Below, piece after piece: positions 3,663-10,090 of a stretch of 10,273 nucleotides of DNA (the first letter of the stretch is position 1; each line of letters starts with the position of its first letter). Under the pieces are notes generated by a model, which saw only the letters and a list, made by a program, of their open reading frames with translations, did not search any database and was not told the DNA's origin. The stretch comes from Promethearchaeia archaeon (GTDB lineage: Archaea; Asgardarchaeota; Lokiarchaeia; Sigyniarchaeales; SOKP01): contig JAHQWX010000038.1 in NCBI GenBank assembly GCA_029856375.1, positions 1-10,273 of the forward strand. Direction: 5' to 3'. A program made the translations under genes and the position numbers.

Positions 3663-3722
3663 CAAATCTCACCAATTTAAAAAAGTCCTAATCTCCACTT
3701 CGTGCGATTTATATTTATATTA

Positions 3723-3745
3723 TCCTATTAATACGAAAAAAGAGA
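3723..3745. repeat. 23-bp perfect direct repeat, copy A
   Basis: This copy begins TCCTATTAAT and ends AAAAAAGAGA. It is identical over 23 bp to positions 4571-4593, 848 bp away in the same orientation. It lies 14 nt beyond the stop of the winged-helix gene at 3760. Read on the minus strand it contains a TTTTTT tract, so it may also serve as a terminator for that gene. Confidence 0.85.
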
Positions 3746-3759
3746 ATTTTTAAAAGATA

Positions 3760-4077
3760 TTAGAATTTTCCTTTATTTTTATCGTAAGGGACATCTTTAA
3801 TTTCATCCCAATCAAGGAGTTCCTTCCAATCAACTGCTCTATATTTTTTACGAAGCCTCCCATTAACAATTTCTTCAGAATTTTTAATAATTCCATCTTT
3901 AAGTAATTTTTTGATGTAATAGTCAGTTTTGCCTACGGTCCAATTAAACTTTTTTGCTAATTCGTAAGTAGTGTGTCCAGGATTTTTATCAATGTATTCA
4001 TAAAGTTGATTCCTATTTTCAAAGGCCTTCTTTCTTCTCACCTGATTAGCAATTTTTAATTTTATCAATTTTATCAC
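3760..4077 (-). CDS. Small winged helix-turn-helix DNA-binding protein
   Basis: A 105-residue basic protein. Residues 22-68 form a winged-helix domain: a first helix (NRNQLYEYIDKNPG), a helix-turn-helix (TTYELAKKFNWTVGKTDYYIKKLLKDG) and a wing with IIKNSEEIVNGRLRKKYRAV. The TTYELAK...V.Y.IKKLLKDGII pattern is typical of archaeal ArsR/MarR-like regulators and plasmid or virus regulators. It probably binds DNA as a dimer; the target is unknown. The start is a GTG at 4075-4077 with no Shine-Dalgarno, but a TATA-like box (4102-4110) lies about 28 nt upstream, so a leaderless mRNA is likely. An imperfect palindrome just upstream (4113-4126) could be its own operator. The gene is much poorer in CG dinucleotides than the housekeeping genes around it and lies within the segment bounded by the 23-bp repeats, which suggests acquisition. 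Confidence 0.75.
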   Translation of the reverse strand: MIKLIKLKIANQVRRKKAFENRNQLYEYIDKNPGHTTYELAKKFNWTVGKTDYYIKKLLKDGIIKNSEEIVNGRLRKKYRAVDWKELLDWDEIKDVPYDKNKGKF

Positions 4078-4101
4078 TAAATATATTTATAAATTTTATA
4101 A

Positions 4102-4126
4102 TATTTATAATTATTCCATATAGAAT
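4102..4126 (-). promoter_or_regulatory. TATA-like box and overlapping palindrome upstream of the winged-helix gene
   Basis: On the minus strand TTATAAATA at 4102-4110 is centred about 29 nt from the GTG start at 4077. Directly upstream, ATTCCATATAGAAT (4113-4126) is an imperfect palindrome (ATTC and GAAT arms around CATATA). A dimeric winged-helix protein binding there would block TBP/TFB, so autoregulation is plausible but not shown. Confidence 0.3.
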
Positions 4127-4153
4127 ATTATGTATGGTTTTTTTATTAATTTT

Positions 4154-4420
4154 TTATTCTTTTTTTAGTTCATTACACGCTTTCAATCCTTTCTCAGTTA
4201 ATTCATAAGTTGTTTTGCGACACGTTGGATGTTTTTTTATAAAACCATTTGAAAGTATAAACTGAAAAGCTTTTTTAACATGTTTGGGATTCATTTTTCT
4301 ATTGAGTTTCTTAATAACAGGTTCCTTTGGATTATGAGCTCCTAAACTAAACTTATTCATATATCCAAAACCCATTAATACAGATTTTTGAACATTATTT
4401 AAATCTTTTAATTCTTTCAT
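4154..4420 (-). CDS. Small winged-helix-like DNA-binding protein
   Basis: An 88-residue basic protein. The second half reads as a recognition helix plus wing: MNPKHVKKAFQFILSNGFIK, followed by TYELTEKGLKACNELKKE. The YELTEKG ending of the wing is characteristic of winged-helix regulators in archaea and their mobile elements. The N-terminal 30 residues have no recognised domain. The ATG start has a TATA-like TTTTTAATATTA (4446-4457, minus strand) about 31 nt upstream, giving a leader of only a few bases. It lies 76 nt upstream of the second winged-helix gene, on the same strand and inside the same 23-bp-repeat-bounded segment, with the same low CG-dinucleotide content. The two probably belong to one mobile or accessory module. 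Its DNA target is unknown. Confidence 0.6.
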   Translation of the reverse strand: MKELKDLNNVQKSVLMGFGYMNKFSLGAHNPKEPVIKKLNRKMNPKHVKKAFQFILSNGFIKKHPTCRKTTYELTEKGLKACNELKKE

Positions 4421-4570
4421 TTTTTAATCGTCTTTTGTTTTCCCCTAATATTAAAAACTAAGAGTAAGAGTGTTAATATCCTTTTAGAAAAAGTAAATAT
4501 TCTATTAAGATAACATAAATTTTATTCAATAATTTTGTATTTACTTTATAGCAACAAAACAAGGATCTTG

Positions 4571-4593
4571 TCCTATTAATACGAAAAAAGAGA
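4571..4593. repeat. 23-bp perfect direct repeat, copy B
   Basis: Identical to 3723-3745. It starts 9 nt beyond the stop of the C2H2 zinc finger gene. As with copy A, the minus-strand reading has a TTTTTT tract just after a gene end, so the repeat may double as a terminator. The two copies flank both winged-helix genes. Confidence 0.85.
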
Positions 4594-4602
4594 TTGCGAA
4601 TC

Positions 4603-5142
4603 CTACTTTTTCTTTGGTTTTTTCAACACGTATTTGTTCACGAAGTTGATTAACCGTTGCATGTTCCCGGATTCCTTGTGAAACCTATTCAACAACCGAC
4701 TCAGCTCCTCGTATTCGAAGATTTCCTTGTCTACATCCAACTCGACGCCGTACTGGTTCATGGGGTAAGGCTTGTCGAAGTCGTAATCGGGATATTTGGC
4801 CAGTATTTCGTTCTTTAATACCTCTCGACGCGCAATAATCCGCTTTTGGATTTTTTTTAATGGGGGAATTTGAACTTGAGTCTTCTCTTTTAATTGTTTC
4901 TCTAACACCGAGTAATCCTTCTGCAATTCTTCGATAATTTCTTTTAGATCATTGTATTCAGGTTTAGGTGCTTCGTGAACTTCTCTTATGTGCCTTTCTA
5001 AGGTGCCCGAACTGGCGTATTTCTTCCCACAATACGCGCACTCGTACTTTTTTTCTGCGATTTTTTTTGGTTTTTCGACCTTGGGCTTTTTTGGCACCTC
5101 TTTTTTCTTGCCTAAAGCAGTCCAGTCTATATCTTCAGTCAA
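4603..5142 (-). CDS. C2H2 zinc finger protein with lysine-rich linker and coiled coil
   Basis: A 179-residue, very basic protein. Residues 35-56 form a classical C2H2 finger, C35-x2-C38-x12-H51-x4-H56 (CAYCGKKYASSGTLERHIREVH), with the usual aromatic (Y42) and Leu (L48) core positions. Before it lies a Lys/Pro-rich stretch (11-32). After it residues 64-120 look helical and coiled-coil-like (LKEIIEELQKDYSVLEKQL), and the tail is again Lys-rich (KKPKKK). A single finger flanked by basic segments suggests nucleic-acid binding, possibly RNA or ribosome-associated, but a protein-binding role is equally possible. The TTG start (5140-5142) overlaps the end of the upstream coiled-coil gene by 8 nt, with AGGAG two bases before it, so translation is probably coupled. 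The unusually short spacing makes the exact start uncertain. The product ends just before repeat copy B. Confidence 0.78.
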   Translation of the reverse strand: MTEDIDWTALGKKKEVPKKPKVEKPKKIAEKKYECAYCGKKYASSGTLERHIREVHEAPKPEYNDLKEIIEELQKDYSVLEKQLKEKTQVQIPPLKKIQKRIIARREVLKNEILAKYPDYDFDKPYPMNQYGVELDVDKEIFEYEELSRLLNRFHKESGNMQRLINFVNKYVLKKPKKK

Positions 5143-5542
5143 AACTCCTAAGCCACTTTTTTAACTCTTCGTTTTCTTTTAATAACTCTTGATATTTAGC
5201 TTTTGTGATTATTAATTCTTTGCTCTTGGGCTCGATTTCCTGAGTTTTTTGAATAAAGAAATTTATTTCGTTTAATTTTTCTAACTCTTCTGGACTGAAA
5301 TAAGGCGCGATATCGGCGGCGTGATTCACAAAAATTTTATATAATTCTTTAAGTTGATTAAAAGGCACACCTATTGAATCTACAATCAAGTCTTTTATAG
5401 GAGATAAATCGCTTCCGTTTTTAAATCTCCATACATTAAGTTTTAAACTTTCGCCAATGTTTTTAGAAAAATTAGACATTCGAACTCTATCGTATTTACT
5501 TTTATACTTAATTAAAACTATTTTTTCACTATTCGCCGACAT
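5135..5542 (-). CDS. Unknown protein with C-terminal coiled coil, coupled to the zinc finger gene
   Basis: I do not recognise this 135-residue protein. Residues 1-45 are basic and beta-like (EKIVLIKYKSKYDRVRMS). The middle (50-85) is mixed, and residues 87-133 are helical with heptad-like Leu/Ile spacing (LIITKAKYQELLKENEELKKWL), indicating a coiled coil. The downstream zinc finger protein also has a coiled coil, and the 8-nt gene overlap means both are made from one message, so a two-protein complex is a reasonable inference. The ATG start is supported by a TATA box TTTAAATA (5566-5573, minus strand) centred 28 nt upstream, which predicts a leaderless mRNA beginning at or near the ATG. No catalytic motif, membrane helix or signal peptide is visible. 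Confidence 0.65.
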   Translation of the reverse strand: MSANSEKIVLIKYKSKYDRVRMSNFSKNIGESLKLNVWRFKNGSDLSPIKDLIVDSIGVPFNQLKELYKIFVNHAADIAPYFSPEELEKLNEINFFIQKTQEIEPKSKELIITKAKYQELLKENEELKKWLRSFD

Positions 5543-5573: not shown

Positions 5574-5619
5574 CATTTGTAATTTAAATATTTATTACGA
5601 AAAAATTAAGGAAATGAAC

Positions 5620-6273: not shown

Positions 6274-6318
6274 AGTCCAACGCTTTCGATTTTCCCGTTA
6301 GTCGCGGGACAAGCGAAA

Positions 6319-6326
6319 CTTTTTAA
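6319..6326 (+). promoter_or_regulatory. TATA-like box upstream of structured element copy 1
   Basis: CTTTTTAA preceded by purine-rich GCGAAA (TFB-site-like) lies about 54 nt before the first closing helix of copy 1. The stronger TATA box of copy 2 is at a similar distance. The predicted transcript would begin near 6349. Confidence 0.35.
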
Positions 6327-6372
6327 GGGTGAAAAACGAATATAGATAGTGAAGTCTAAGGACTATAAAATA

Positions 6373-6508
6373 ATATTCGGTACAAGGAGAAATAAGCAAT
6401 GTATTCTTATACCTCAACCCTTAACCCTATTGTTAGAAACTACATCTCCCTCATTTTAGATGCTTTTTAGTTATTTCTCCCACCCGAATATCTCTTTATC
6501 CTTTTTTT
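6373..6508 (+). ncRNA. Duplicated structured RNA candidate, copy 1
   Basis: The outer helix pairs ATATTCGG (6373-6380) with CCGAATAT (6484-6491), all 8 bp. After a 5/3-nt internal loop, the inner helix pairs GGAGAAATAA (6386-6395) with TTATTTCTCC (6471-6480), all 10 bp. A third short helix, CAAT (6397-6400) with ATTG (6429-6432), follows, and a CATCT/AGATG hairpin (6443-6447, 6458-6462) fits the 3' half. The element ends in a pyrimidine tail with seven T (6502-6508), an archaeal termination signal. Blocks shared in order with copy 2 include AAGGAGAAATA, TCAACCCTTAA, CCTATTGTTAGA, TCTCCCTC, GTTATTTCTCC and CCCGAATAT. The plus strand is favoured by the 5' TATA-like box and 3' T tract. I cannot match it to a known RNA family (not tRNA, SRP or RNase P RNA by visible motifs). 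A mobile inverted-repeat element is the main alternative. Confidence 0.6.
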
Positions 6509-6654
6509 AACGCGACTTCGCTAAGTGATTTTGAAATATATAGCAGTTGGAGTTTAAAAAGAGCACGGTTATTTCTAAATTTGAAATTATTAAATTTTAA
6601 TTTTTAATAGTATGTTAAAAAATTCTAAATTTTGATTATCTGGCTTTTAATTGA

Positions 6655-6675
6655 AGAAAAAAAAGAAAAAAAAAT
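6655..6675 (-). terminator. Candidate T-rich terminator of the MFS transporter gene
   Basis: On the minus strand two uninterrupted T runs separated by a single C begin about 35 nt after the transporter stop codon, consistent with archaeal oligo-T termination. Motif-only call. Confidence 0.4.
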
Positions 6676-6709
6676 ATTAAATTAAATAAGATCCCATTTC
6701 AAGTACCAA

Positions 6710-8071
6710 TTACTTCGCTTTTTCCCAGTCGAAATCAAGTCGAACATATTTTCTTGTATATAGAAAAGAACACAAGAGTATCCCAGAACATATTGGTCCC
6801 CACAACACCAAACCCAACGAATAGGTCAGAGATCCCACGGTAATTTCGGGCAACGAATCGATGACAACGCCAAGCACAAGCACCCCAAACGCTTGGAACG
6901 CGTTAAGAATTATGCTATTAAAACCGGTATAAATTCCCGCCTTTAAGCACCCCGTGTTTTTTTCGTCGTCTTCCGCAACATCGGCGTATATTATGTACGG
7001 AAACAAGCCCCACCCTCCTAACATTGCCGCTATGCAAGTAACCATAATTAACGCGAACACGATGTTGGTCGCAAATTCTAGGAGTCCAACGAGAGAGAGG
7101 GGAAGCGTTATTACCGCAAAGAGGAAGATCATTAGTAGCGTCGTTTTTTTACCTTTTTTCTCAACCAATTTTCTCCACATCAATACAAAGATTAAGATGC
7201 CGACGATTAAGATTATCGAGATAATTAGATTTGCATCGCCTCCTATGTTTAGTACGACCAAACTGTAGGTTAACATCACATCGGTTATTATTGACCACCC
7301 TAAACTCGAGATTCCGATCATAAGTATGATGCGAAGGTAATTTTTGTTTTTTAGAATTAATTTTAGGCTTCCTATTAAATCTGTATCGATTTCGGAGTAC
7401 GGCTCGGTTGGCATTAAAATGGCGACTATGTAGAATAGGGCTATTAGGATAATCCCAAATAATATCGTTAGAATAAGAAAGTCTGATGGCATAGGGCTGT
7501 TGATATTTACTTCTAATTGATCAGCAAAACTCGATAACACGAGCATTGTCATGAGAAACATAATCGCGTTCCCGATGTAATTGAAGTAGTTCTGAAATTG
7601 AGACACTTTTGGGCGCTTTTCAGTTATAAATTGCTCGGGCACCCACGCTTGGTACACTGTCGTCATAGAATAACCGATCTTAAATAAAGCATCCCATAGT
7701 AAAAACCATAAAAACAAAGCAATTTTGTCGTTAAGATCGGGTAGGATCAAAGTTGGGAACAATAACATAATAAACGAAATCGCTAATAAGGGGGTAAGCA
7801 GTAATATATATGGCTTCCTTCTTCCCCATTTTGTATACTTTGCGTCGCTAATCCATCCAAAGAAAAATTGACCAAATCCAATTATAATAAATCCTATCGC
7901 TTGGGCAATTCCTATAAGTAAAAACGGTACTCCTAAACCCACATAATAAAAAGCTGACAACGCAAAACCTTCAATTCCCAAAACCATTGACGAGCCAAGC
8001 CTCGCTGACGCGTAAAATGCCATTTTTCTCGTAGAAGTCTTACTGGTTTCAAAATCGTTTTTCTCGTTCAT
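6710..8071 (-). CDS. MFS transporter of the GPH (glycoside-pentoside-hexuronide:cation symporter) type
   Basis: A 453-residue membrane protein with about twelve hydrophobic segments. Two family signatures are visible. The loop between helices 2 and 3 reads GWISDAKYTKWGRRKP (72-87), the D-x(n)-GRR-x-P motif of GPH/MFS_2 carriers. YADVAEDDEKNTG (362-374) with the following AGIYTGF matches the DvxdydExxTGxRxxGixxG motif near helix 10-11. GPH carriers usually import sugars or related glycosides with Na+ or H+; the substrate here cannot be read. The hydrophilic first 16 residues are cytoplasmic. The ATG start is supported by a TATA box (TTTATAAA at 8092-8099 on the minus strand) about 25 nt upstream, predicting a leaderless mRNA. 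The gene therefore has its own promoter although it lies 174 nt downstream of the decarboxylase-family gene. An ATCATGAT palindrome (8105-8112) sits just upstream of the TATA box. Confidence 0.87.
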   Translation of the reverse strand: MNEKNDFETSKTSTRKMAFYASARLGSSMVLGIEGFALSAFYYVGLGVPFLLIGIAQAIGFIIIGFGQFFFGWISDAKYTKWGRRKPYILLLTPLLAISFIMLLFPTLILPDLNDKIALFLWFLLWDALFKIGYSMTTVYQAWVPEQFITEKRPKVSQFQNYFNYIGNAIMFLMTMLVLSSFADQLEVNINSPMPSDFLILTILFGIILIALFYIVAILMPTEPYSEIDTDLIGSLKLILKNKNYLRIILMIGISSLGWSIITDVMLTYSLVVLNIGGDANLIISIILIVGILIFVLMWRKLVEKKGKKTTLLMIFLFAVITLPLSLVGLLEFATNIVFALIMVTCIAAMLGGWGLFPYIIYADVAEDDEKNTGCLKAGIYTGFNSIILNAFQAFGVLVLGVVIDSLPEITVGSLTYSLGLVLWGPICSGILLCSFLYTRKYVRLDFDWEKAK

Positions 8072-8091
8072 ATTTTTCGCCTAAATTTGTT

Positions 8092-8112
8092 TTTATAAAT
8101 TACGATCATGAT
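8092..8112 (-). promoter_or_regulatory. TATA box and adjacent palindrome of the MFS transporter gene
   Basis: On the minus strand TTTATAAA is centred about 25 nt before the ATG at 8071. The perfect 8-bp palindrome ATCATGAT (8105-8112) lies immediately upstream, where a regulator could interfere with TFB binding. The TATA part is fairly sure; the operator role is a guess. Confidence 0.4.
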
Positions 8113-8245
8113 ATAGACGGTAAATTTTATAAAAATATTTTCAAATCGGAAATCATGTAAATTATAGGTTAATATTTAAAAAATGTAGTTTTTTCAGCTT
8201 TTTTAATACCAATTTCTCTGAAAAAAAGAAAGAATTTAGGTTAAA

Positions 8246-9046
8246 TTAGAAAGGATCCCATTTCAGGAACGCGTAAGGGGCAAAGGTCGTTGGTTTCGCC
8301 TCGGCAACAACGCTGCCCTTTAGCATTTTGTTATCTCCAATAGTGAACGTGCTCCCAATTATCTCAACTATTTCTACTTCTGCCCACGGGTCGTCCGCCG
8401 ACGGTTTTAGAGTTATATCCACTTCGGCCTTTCGAATAGATTTGTGATTAAACTGAACCTTTTCCCGAATTAAGCGAGGGTCGTAATCGAATATCGCGTC
8501 GCCACCAGGGGCGGGAAAGTGCTTGTAATTGTAAATGGTCAAGTTAAAGTCTTCGACACCAAACTCGTTTATCATTTTTATAGCTTCTTCTAAGGTTATC
8601 TCTTCGGTTAATTTTGCTTTCATTTCCACAATCCTAATTCCCTTACGCTCAAACCAACCTTCCACGCTCTCGGCGTCCCGCTTGTAGTGAAAGTTGGCCA
8701 TTTTTTTTGGATAGCCGTAGTATTCCCTACCGGCTGCCATCGCTATGTCGTTATCGACGGGCATCGAAAGAATGTAAAGCCCTAATTCTCCTTTATGTTG
8801 AGCTAAAACGGAGAGGGCGCTTTCGTGGTATGTAACGCCGAAATTCGTTCTCGGATAATAGGCGATAAAGGCTACCGCAATTGGGTCTTTTGCGGGTTTT
8901 AACGGGCGCGGCAATATTTTCTTAATCATTTCGGGTTTTGTTTTGTAATAAACGACCAGCATTTCCGCGTCGTAAAAATCAGCGGTTTCCATTTGCGTCG
9001 CTTTCATAATTTCTTCTAAAGACTTGACAAAACTCACGATTATCAC
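8246..9046 (-). CDS. Acetoacetate decarboxylase family enzyme
   Basis: A 266-residue protein with the active-site pattern of acetoacetate decarboxylase (EC 4.1.1.4; acetoacetate to acetone plus CO2). REYYGYPKKMANF (107-119) carries the Lys-Lys pair K114-K115, equivalent to Schiff-base K115 and its neighbour K116 in the Clostridium acetobutylicum enzyme. YHES at 73-76 supplies E75, equivalent to its E76. The near-identical spacing (one residue off) is good evidence for the fold and the catalytic lysine. Many ADC-like proteins act on other beta-keto acids or do aldol/dehydratase chemistry, so the substrate is open. The GTG start at 9044-9046 gives the longest form; ATG at 9005-9007 (M14), preceded by purine-rich AGAAGAAATT, or ATG at 8990-8992 (M19) are alternatives. 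A T-rich minus-strand tract at 8219-8233 probably terminates it. The MFS transporter gene follows on the same strand. Confidence 0.85.
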   Translation of the reverse strand: MIIVSFVKSLEEIMKATQMETADFYDAEMLVVYYKTKPEMIKKILPRPLKPAKDPIAVAFIAYYPRTNFGVTYHESALSVLAQHKGELGLYILSMPVDNDIAMAAGREYYGYPKKMANFHYKRDAESVEGWFERKGIRIVEMKAKLTEEITLEEAIKMINEFGVEDFNLTIYNYKHFPAPGGDAIFDYDPRLIREKVQFNHKSIRKAEVDITLKPSADDPWAEVEIVEIIGSTFTIGDNKMLKGSVVAEAKPTTFAPYAFLKWDPF

Positions 9047-9195
9047 TTTTTAGTAGCATTAAATTGGATTTAGCGAATAAGAAGAAGCTATTTCATTTAA
9101 ATCTTTTTTGACTTATGGCAATATAAAATTTATTGAGAAAGTGTTGCGTTATTAAACCTTTTATCCGTCCCCTTTTTAAAATAGGTCGCATAATA

Positions 9196-9204
9196 TTTAT
9201 ATAA
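9196..9204 (+). promoter_or_regulatory. TATA box of the TPR microprotein gene
   Basis: TTTATATAA predicts a transcription start near 9226, a few bases before the ATG at 9232. It lies downstream of most of the spacer shared with the divergent decarboxylase-family gene. Confidence 0.5.
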
Positions 9205-9231
9205 TCCAATGCAATTTTGCGAGTTTCGAAC

Positions 9232-9432
9232 ATGACAATTAACGGAGAAAACGCGCCAGAACTCAATCTTAACGAGCTGGTAAATATGGGCAACGAGTAT
9301 TTGCTAAAATACGATCTTAAAAGAGCGTTTGAGTGCTACGATAAGGCCGTTAAGTTAGATCCCGACCATTGGACCGCGCTCAAGGTCCACGAGATCGTAA
9401 CGAAAGCGTTCTCGGAAAACACGGCGTACTAA
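9232..9432 (+). CDS. Single-TPR microprotein
   Basis: A 66-residue protein containing one complete tetratricopeptide repeat, from about residue 17 to 50: LVNMGNEYLLKYDLKRAFEC then YDKAVKLDPDHWTAL. The consensus positions are present (G near the start of helix A, A and F/Y in helix B, LDPD at the turn). One extra helix follows (LKVHEIVTKAF). TPRs mediate protein-protein contacts; a single repeat is too short for a full superhelix, so it probably pairs with itself or docks on a larger TPR partner. I chose ATG 9232 over the in-frame TTG at 9217, because the TATA box at 9196-9204 places the transcript start near 9226, downstream of the TTG. There is no Shine-Dalgarno, as expected for a near-leaderless message. 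It is divergent from the decarboxylase-family gene and converges with the gene at 9496-9693. Confidence 0.72.
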   Translation: MTINGENAPELNLNELVNMGNEYLLKYDLKRAFECYDKAVKLDPDHWTALKVHEIVTKAFSENTAY

Positions 9433-9495
9433 TCCTGTATTCAGTAACAAACGCTTTTCTGGGTTACCAATCCTATTCCGTTTACTCCTAAACGC

Positions 9496-9693
9496 TTATT
9501 TTTCGCAAACTCTCTTTAATCTATGTTTTAATTCGCCAAAGAAGCCCATTAACATCGACAGTTGCATGCCTCTGTTTTTCTCGTCCCTAACCTTGTTGTA
9601 AAAACTTGAAATGCGCTGGCACAAATCTTCAATGAAATCGTGCGTCGTGTCGATGTCGTGACCCCAGAGAGTTCTTTCTCCCTTTACCTTCAT
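9496..9693 (-). CDS. Unknown 65-residue protein
   Basis: I do not recognise this product. It is a mostly helical, basic protein: HDFIEDLCQRISSFYNKVRDE reads as one amphipathic helix and MLMGFFGELKHRLKRVCEK as a second. Two cysteines (one in each helix) are too far apart in type to call a metal site. There is no signal peptide; the MLMGFFG stretch is too short for a sure membrane helix. The ATG start is preceded by GAGAGTGA four bases upstream, a partial Shine-Dalgarno, and by a TATA-like CTTTTAATAG (9736-9745, minus strand) that would give a leader of about 20 nt. It converges with the TPR gene (63-nt gap). Codon use is like the neighbours, which supports a real gene. Confidence 0.55.
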   Translation of the reverse strand: MKVKGERTLWGHDIDTTHDFIEDLCQRISSFYNKVRDEKNRGMQLSMLMGFFGELKHRLKRVCEK

Positions 9694-9870
9694 AATTCAC
9701 TCTCTTATTGTTAGAACGAACATAATACGAATTAGCTATTAAAAGCAGTTTCTTAACACCTATTGGAATTTAACTATTTAAAGGAAAAGTTTTTTTTTTA
9801 ATTTAAAAGTACTTTCAATCCGACATAATTTAGACTTACTATTTTTGCAATGATGAGAAGGTGGAGAAAA

Positions 9871-9880
9871 GTTTATAAAT
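9871..9880 (+). promoter_or_regulatory. Strong TATA box upstream of structured element copy 2
   Basis: GTTTATAAAT preceded by purine-rich GGAGAAAA (TFB-recognition-like) is one of the best archaeal promoter matches in the window. No protein-coding start lies downstream at the right distance, but the conserved structured element does (predicted transcript start near 9902, first helix from 9931). Confidence 0.6.
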
Positions 9881-9930
9881 AAATTATCGTCTATAATTAA
9901 ACTAAGAAATTATCTTTTGATGATTTCGGT

Positions 9931-10090
9931 AGTATTCGGTGAAAGGAGAAATACAATGATGTATTGTTATTCAACCCTTAAAGAGTCGATCGGTTCGCTG
10001 TGACTTGGGGAAACCTATTGTTAGATACTTAGTCTCCCTCGTCCTTATTTCTTTGGTTATTTCTCCGCCCGAATATTCTCTTTATTCTTT
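9931..10090 (+). ncRNA. Duplicated structured RNA candidate, copy 2
   Basis: This has the same architecture as the element at 6373-6508. The outer helix pairs AGTATTCGG (9931-9939) with CCGAATATT (10069-10077), including one G-U where copy 1 has A-U. The inner helix pairs GGAGAAATA (9945-9953) with TATTTCTCC (10058-10066), 9 bp. The third helix is CAAT (9954-9957) with ATTG (10017-10020). Relative to copy 1 an arm of roughly 25-30 nt is inserted between TCAACCCTTAA (9971-9981) and CCTATTGTTAGA (10014-10025). It can fold on its own through AGTC/GACT (9984-9987, 10000-10003), as variable arms of structured RNAs do. The 3' tail CTCTTTAT plus pyrimidines is also kept. The strong upstream TATA box supports plus-strand transcription. 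Function unknown. Confidence 0.62.

Follow-up and report, generated by a model that had tools for sequence, protein, structure and literature searches.

A new RNA gene family of a single Lokiarchaeota family, with a covarying stem, an almost invariant core and candidate bulge-helix-bulge introns

In Y RNAs the two ends pair to form a stem that has two parts and an internal loop; the large loop is rich in pyrimidines and the 3' end is U-rich. 6S RNA is a long stem with an internal bubble, while C-rich multi-seed bacterial small RNAs (sRNAs), e.g., RsaE and LhrC, carry repeated unpaired C-rich motifs. Traits of all three are met in an RNA gene that occurs in two copies in a stretch of 10,273 nucleotides (the window; contig JAHQWX010000038.1 of assembly GCA_029856375.1) from a Promethearchaeia archaeon, i.e., one of the Asgard archaea, which are considered the closest archaeal relatives of eukaryotes known so far. 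Another parallel concerns short inserts in this gene. Bulge-helix-bulge introns are marked, where exon meets intron, by a 4-bp helix flanked by two 3-nt bulges, and in the account of PMC6379350 such motifs are known in pre-tRNA, pre-rRNA and some pre-mRNA. The signal recognition particle (SRP) RNA of Thermoproteus is described in PMC4731332 as circularised, permuted and processed at a bulge-helix-bulge by the tRNA-splicing endonuclease.

The comparison with these systems leads to the following points, where the family is the taxonomic family f1 (65 genomes), a further 162 genomes of the phylum lying outside it (227 in total). (i) The RNA resembles Y RNAs by its two-part end stem with internal loop, its large pyrimidine-rich loop and its U-rich 3' end, but it has no Rfam match and the Ro60/TROVE gene is absent from 25 of 25 family genomes searched, so that a Y RNA is not supported; the only Ro60/TROVE gene among the 39 genomes searched is in another family. 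(ii) A long stem with an internal bubble is shared with 6S RNA, but the conserved part is here a long unpaired core and not a double-stranded bubble, again without Rfam match. (iii) Repeated unpaired C-rich motifs recall RsaE and LhrC, but no Shine-Dalgarno signal was found in the family and the core is far more invariant. (iv) The motif geometry and the very short candidate introns are those of archaeal bulge-helix-bulge intron hosts, but the host is here an RNA outside every Rfam family. (v) As in Thermoproteus SRP RNA, a stable RNA other than tRNA has a bulge-helix-bulge motif, at which processing would take place; SRP RNA is of a known family, and the ends are joined at its motif, whereas the motifs here flank internal inserts.

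The two window copies are members of the same new family of non-coding RNA genes, which is carried by one taxonomic family of Lokiarchaeota. The window is contig C458 of an assembly of 2.54 Mb (69% complete), and the four closest carriers are metagenome-assembled genomes named Lokiarchaeota or Lokiarchaeia (CSMAG_2237, ABR01, 2R3_4 and 6H3_1). BLASTN with copy 2 against 39 genomes yields clear matches in two parts for the window's own genome and for four others of the genus; the other rows are short and at chance level. A first covariance model (R1) was built from the two window copies and four same-genus orthologues (6 sequences). It finds members in other genera that are absent from its building set (G005, G019 and G017, with expectation values E = 7e-9 to 2e-8), thus the resemblance of the two copies exceeds chance. 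R1 matches 50 of the 65 family genomes at E <= 0.1, with at least one false row: the weak match in G040 is, on reading, not the RNA, and the second model found none there. R1 also gives weak, putative second matches in G053, G019 and G052. The second model (R2; 24 sequences, E <= 0.01, stricter Infernal filters) matches 55 of the 65 family genomes and none of the 162 others. Of the 15 family genomes that are at least 90% complete and at most 5% contaminated, 14 match.

When up to 3 mismatches are allowed, a pattern of the 26-nt core hits 46 places in 45 of the 227 genomes, all within the family (44 exact), and the reversed control pattern has no match in the same genomes. There is mostly one copy per genome. 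G006 has two; the window genome has two by R1 and one by R2, which missed copy 2. In G006 both copies (L065; G006:C389:1979-2135 and 2455-2609) are full, about 476 nt apart, with intact cores. Rfam 15 gives no match at the RNA gene at E <= 5, either in the window or in 19 relative loci, which bears out the description of the RNA as undescribed in the earlier note. The sole Rfam match in the window is weak (E 3.8) and lies at 4569-4628, away from both copies; ARAGORN finds no tRNA in the window. Such an RNA was not found named in the open-licence literature searched, preprints excluded. The RNA family is new and fits no Rfam family; the bulge-helix-bulge type of intron is already known.

From 5' to 3', the RNA consists of P1 (AAGATCGGAA/TTCCGATTT type), a small loop, P2 (CCATGATA/TATCATGG type), AAUAUAUUCUUAUACCUAA, P3, AAUACCUCAACCCUUAACCCUGUUAUUAGAU, AAAUACGUCUCCUCUUUUU, a linker, P2', P1' and a T-rich tail. 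The ordered blocks shared by both window copies are present where they had been reported (repeat families D2, D4, D13 and D15), and so are the two closing helices: an outer one of 8 bp and an inner one of 10 bp (copy 1) or 9 bp (copy 2), around an internal loop of 5/3 nt and 5/2 nt, respectively. No open reading frame (ORF) >= 60 aa runs across either copy, in agreement with the reported absence of gene overlap. The short third helix proposed at the same time is not common to both copies. The real small hairpin of the family, P3 (GCCGA..UCGGC, GAGUC..GACUC and other variants), is present in most genera and missing in the window genus.

The core contains repeated A-C-C-Y motifs and a pyrimidine-rich 3' part. 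Copy 1 and the four same-genus orthologues are identical over 57 of 57 core nucleotides, while the four-fold sites of three neighbouring genes in the same genus agree at only 24/90, 23/86, 16/54 and 24/63 positions; with such saturation next to it, the core must be constrained as nucleotides and not as a peptide. Across the family, pairwise identity (22 of the 24 rows of alignment A7, two window-genus rows excluded) reaches 99.0% and 99.7% in core segments of 19 and 31 columns, 92% in the pyrimidine-rich segment, 77% in P1 plus P2 and 61% in P3.

The stems vary in a way that maintains pairing. In 54 matches (53 distinct, window copy 2 left aside) aligned by fit to the model, 89.8% of the cells of P1-P2 are paired, vs. 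78.3% after shuffling and at most 50.2% in slid structures. Doubly changed cells number 95, vs. 27.0 (standard deviation 4.3) after shuffling and at most 40 in slid structures. Changes on both sides are seen for 19 of the 20 modelled pairs, i.e., the compensatory changes in relatives that the earlier note had called for. The six-sequence set has two pair types beyond the first and no change on both sides. When P3 is looked for from its flanks alone, the mean longest stem is 5.4 bp vs. 3.2 bp in shuffled segments (26 distinct of 48 segments).

An insert of 29-33 nt interrupts the core in 14 of 55 sequences (the 54 model matches plus window copy 2), each time at one of five sites (Table 1). Sites A-D are each found in two genera, thus gains or losses were repeated. 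A strict bulge-helix-bulge motif was defined as a 4-bp central helix with 3-nt bulges cut between bases 2 and 3 and >= 2 bp beyond, at cuts that restore the intronless sequence. Ten of the 14 inserts have it. Misplaced cut pairs pass in 17 of 3954 cases (0.43%) and shuffled inserts at 0.44%, the latter against 9 of the 13 real inserts tested. No insert passes on the reverse complement (0/14), which further supports the plus strand as the RNA. Among the remaining inserts, L045, L059 and L075 have 3 of the 4 central pairs, and L058 has the central helix without adjoining stem. In copy 2 the exon CCCU faces the intron GGGG, with bulges UA^A and AA^A, a central helix of 4/4 and an adjoining stem of 2 bp; this copy has no intronless orthologue, and its core after joining is CAACCCUUAACCUAUUG, with a single C less than in copy 1. 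First described as a structural arm, the insert of copy 2 is best read as a tRNA-type intron, since the cuts restoring the core fall on the motif. P3 does not fit an intron, as judged by eye.

The reading preferred here, with a probability of roughly 45%, is that of a new RNA gene with a covarying stem, an invariant core and bulge-helix-bulge introns, whose product would be the RNA of a housekeeping-type ribonucleoprotein (RNP) and would bind a protein through its core. From the sequence we infer a promoter, transcription, splicing and a function, as follows. A transcript from its own promoter would fold on the two-part stem P1 plus P2, and this stem would serve as a handle presenting the core, about 50-60 nt that are for the most part unpaired and almost invariant; the small variable hairpin P3 interrupts it in most genera and not in the window genus. 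The tRNA-splicing endonuclease and a ligase would remove the 29-33 nt inserts at the motif observed. The core, with its A-C-C-Y motifs and pyrimidine-rich 3' part, would be a sequence-specific surface for a conserved partner, more probably a protein than an RNA. A protein-bound RNA is favoured over RNA pairing because the mostly single copy, the invariant unpaired core, the freely varying stems and the inserts from which the core can be restored are marks of RNP RNAs. It is possible, on a more tentative footing, that this is a housekeeping RNP RNA of Lokiarchaeota of the kind of RNase P RNA, SRP RNA or small nuclear RNA, with the core engaged in a basic process (RNA processing, translation), matured by the tRNA-splicing machinery and having gained introns repeatedly at five sites.

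Several results weigh against the preferred reading. (i) R2 has no match in 10 of the 65 family genomes, three of which are >= 90% complete (G009, G055 and G072). (ii) The core of window copy 2 is diverged. (iii) The fitted alignment behind the covariation leans toward the structure; on a plain alignment RNAalifold recovers P2 and neither P1 nor P3, and a plain MAFFT alignment distributes the outer stem over differing columns. (iv) Four of the 14 inserts miss the strict motif, and only six pass when an adjoining stem >= 3 bp is demanded. (v) The partner tests given below cover small-subunit rRNA, RNase P, SRP and 5S RNAs of few genomes, plus a scan of the large-subunit (LSU) rRNA without shuffles, so that an RNA partner keeps some probability.

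The alternative that survives best, though less likely in our estimation, is a trans-acting antisense RNA, in which the unpaired C-rich core would pair with a number of mRNAs or with a single, highly conserved RNA, e.g., a tRNA. A long invariant unpaired core with repeated ACCY motifs is what such an RNA could have, and short complements (8-14 nt) are below the sensitivity of the tests made. These tests nevertheless show no complement above shuffles in the regions tried: for the small-subunit (SSU) rRNA (G001 only), a conceivable partner of a U3-like, rRNA-pairing RNA, the complement to the core is within the range of 15 shuffled cores; for RNase P and SRP RNAs, in 7 comparisons over four genomes, between 9 and 40 of 40 shuffles are equally high; for the 5S region (six genomes) 4 to 40 of 40 are. 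No tRNA gene was found in the nine loci scanned. ORF starts, taken as the first ATG, have no Shine-Dalgarno signal (8/154 vs. 9/154 for the control stretch), which leaves an sRNA that blocks this signal nothing to block. Moreover, neither a second place nor a near-complement of the 26-nt core, with up to 3 mismatches, exists in the 227 genomes, which leans away from a long antisense target. The guide-like or polymerase-binding role suggested in the earlier note is not supported, there being evidence neither for nor against it beyond the results given here; of its overall interpretation the structured RNA stands, while the arm, the third helix and this role do not.

It is improbable that the inserts are alternative structural arms of the mature RNA. 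Every insert can form a hairpin and the four inserts without strict motif would be accommodated, but all five places lie inside an otherwise invariant core, and the restoring cuts fall on the motif far more often than misplaced ones and never on the reverse strand.

A very diverged or rearranged version of one of the universal RNAs already known, such as RNase P, SRP or 5S RNA, is very improbable. The mostly single copy would suit it, as would the fact that 5S genes of the family are themselves rearranged. Against it, separate RNase P RNA-like genes exist in 9 of 9 family genomes searched (6 above the cut-off), separate SRP-like genes in 7 of 9 and 5S-like genes in 6 of 9 (none of either above the curated cut-off), and Rfam has no match near the gene in the 19 loci. 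The 5S rRNA genes of the family look circularly permuted (L202 and L204 in G004 and G001, L203 in G020, L205 and L206 in G050 and G047, L207/L209 in G013): a tetraloop closes helix I, and both the start and the end of the gene are near helix III/loop C. The RF00001 matches in these 6 of 9 genomes are sub-threshold, and an ordinary 5S gene is found in G030, of another family. At the junction that restores the usual 5S sequence, a strict bulge-helix-bulge motif is present in 5 of 6 genes (not G020); per gene, 1530-1710 pairs were tried and 2-3 passed, this one included. The phrase "permuted 5S" occurs in no paper of the open-licence literature searched, preprints excluded.

That there is no separate RNA gene at all, but instead a gene for a small protein, a cis-regulatory leader or a mobile element, can be dismissed almost entirely: the window genus does have a frame of 21-23 codons starting at 6399, and two copies occur in the window and, close together, in G006, but ATA replaces the ATG in rows outside the genus, silent sites are conserved where those of neighbouring genes are saturated, the downstream gene differs and is reversed in some loci, and viral contigs have no exact core pattern. 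With mostly one copy per genome and recurring neighbours, a mobile element or virus was set aside, and transposon-like spread, which would have pointed elsewhere, is absent. The AT-rich 17-mer has 15 viral matches, in each case without the remainder of the core; one of these matches is truncated at the end of its contig. Six viral contigs (L213, L214, L221, L222, L223 and L225) have AGTATATATATAGTTTTGTCATATATTCTTATACCTACCC in common; its overlap with the AT-rich segment of the RNA is probably due to chance.

The neighbourhood was surveyed in 53 usable loci of 54, the window genus being largely counted twice. A CoiA-like nuclease gene is upstream in 29 of the 53, and an uncharacterised small protein gene is present in 29 (28 downstream). 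A deacetylase-like gene is found in 22 loci, 21 times upstream, and 17 loci have an M24 peptidase gene. The gene downstream varies between loci and is oppositely oriented in some. These recurring neighbours reflect vertical inheritance in a slowly changing neighbourhood. The RNA is near the M24 peptidase gene in all four same-genus relatives, and directly before it in two. In the window some 3.4 kb lie between the RNA and that gene, and the RNA is inverted relative to it; there only, the two are separated by a block of small genes at 3760-5542, one of which has a C2H2 zinc finger. This block is flanked by repeats with TTAATACGAAAAAA (3717-3745, 4565-4593 and 5592-5605), which are 93-100% alike over 14-29 nt. 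Among the other window genes are those for a ferredoxin-like protein, a Ras-like GTPase, an MFS transporter and an acetoacetate decarboxylase. A direct repeat of 51 nt (75%) links 6656-6706, just after the MFS gene, with 8220-8270, the coding end of the acetoacetate decarboxylase gene; the former looks as if it were the remnant of a duplicated gene end.

TATA-like boxes are visible upstream of both window copies, as had been reported (Table 1). The upstream element TTTTCCYTTTTGTCATRKGAAAA, with <= 2 mismatches, occurs at 46 places in 37 of the 65 family genomes; by coordinates, 28 of these places precede the RNA gene by no more than about 100 nt, and the other 18 do not. In copy 1 the element is too diverged to match this consensus. 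This promoter element (L151-L170), conserved upstream of the TATA box that belongs to the RNA gene, also precedes other genes of the family and is perhaps a common transcription-factor site. No copy of it was seen by eye before RNase P, SRP and rRNA genes in 11 stretches.

Table 1. Features of the two RNA copies in the window, and insert sites in the core across the family.
Feature	Position or site	Strand	Remarks
Upstream element, copy 1	6290..6312	+	TTTTCCCGTTAGTCGCGGGACAA; counterpart of the element preceding the TATA box in relatives
TATA-like box, copy 1	6320..6327 (about)	+	by eye; A/T-rich box at the corresponding place in relatives
RNA copy 1, P1 to P1'	6373..6491	+	model R1, E 1.5e-29 (sequence itself in the model)
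P1 5' strand, copy 1	6373..6380	+	partner 6484-6491, 8 bp
P2 5' strand, copy 1	6386..6395	+	partner 6471-6480, 10 bp
Core, copy 1	6399..6455	+	57 nt; without P3, without intron; identical in four same-genus orthologues
P2 3' strand, copy 1	6471..6480	+	partner 6386-6395
P1 3' strand, copy 1	6484..6491	+	followed by a pyrimidine/T-rich tail
TATA-like box, copy 2	9872..9879 (about)	+	by eye
RNA copy 2, P1 to P1'	9932..10076	+	diverged core; detected by R1, missed by R2 at threshold
P1 5' strand, copy 2	9932..9939	+	partner 10069-10076, 8 bp
P2 5' strand, copy 2	9945..9953	+	partner 10058-10066, 9 bp
Insert, copy 2	9981..10012	+	32 nt; read as bulge-helix-bulge intron
P2 3' strand, copy 2	10058..10066	+	partner 9945-9953
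P1 3' strand, copy 2	10069..10076	+	partner 9932-9939
Insert site A	UUCUUA-UACCU		L061, L073
Insert site B	ACCUC-AACCC		L045, L059
Insert site C	ACCCUU-AACCC		L058, L071, L072, L075, window copy 2
Insert site D	ACCCUG-UUAUUAG		L120-L123
Insert site E	GUUAU-UAGAU		L124

An RNA with a core that hardly changes in sequence throughout most genomes of the family, next to genes with saturated silent sites, points to an important machine. Should the inserts be introns, the enzymes of tRNA splicing would have one more class of substrate in these archaea.

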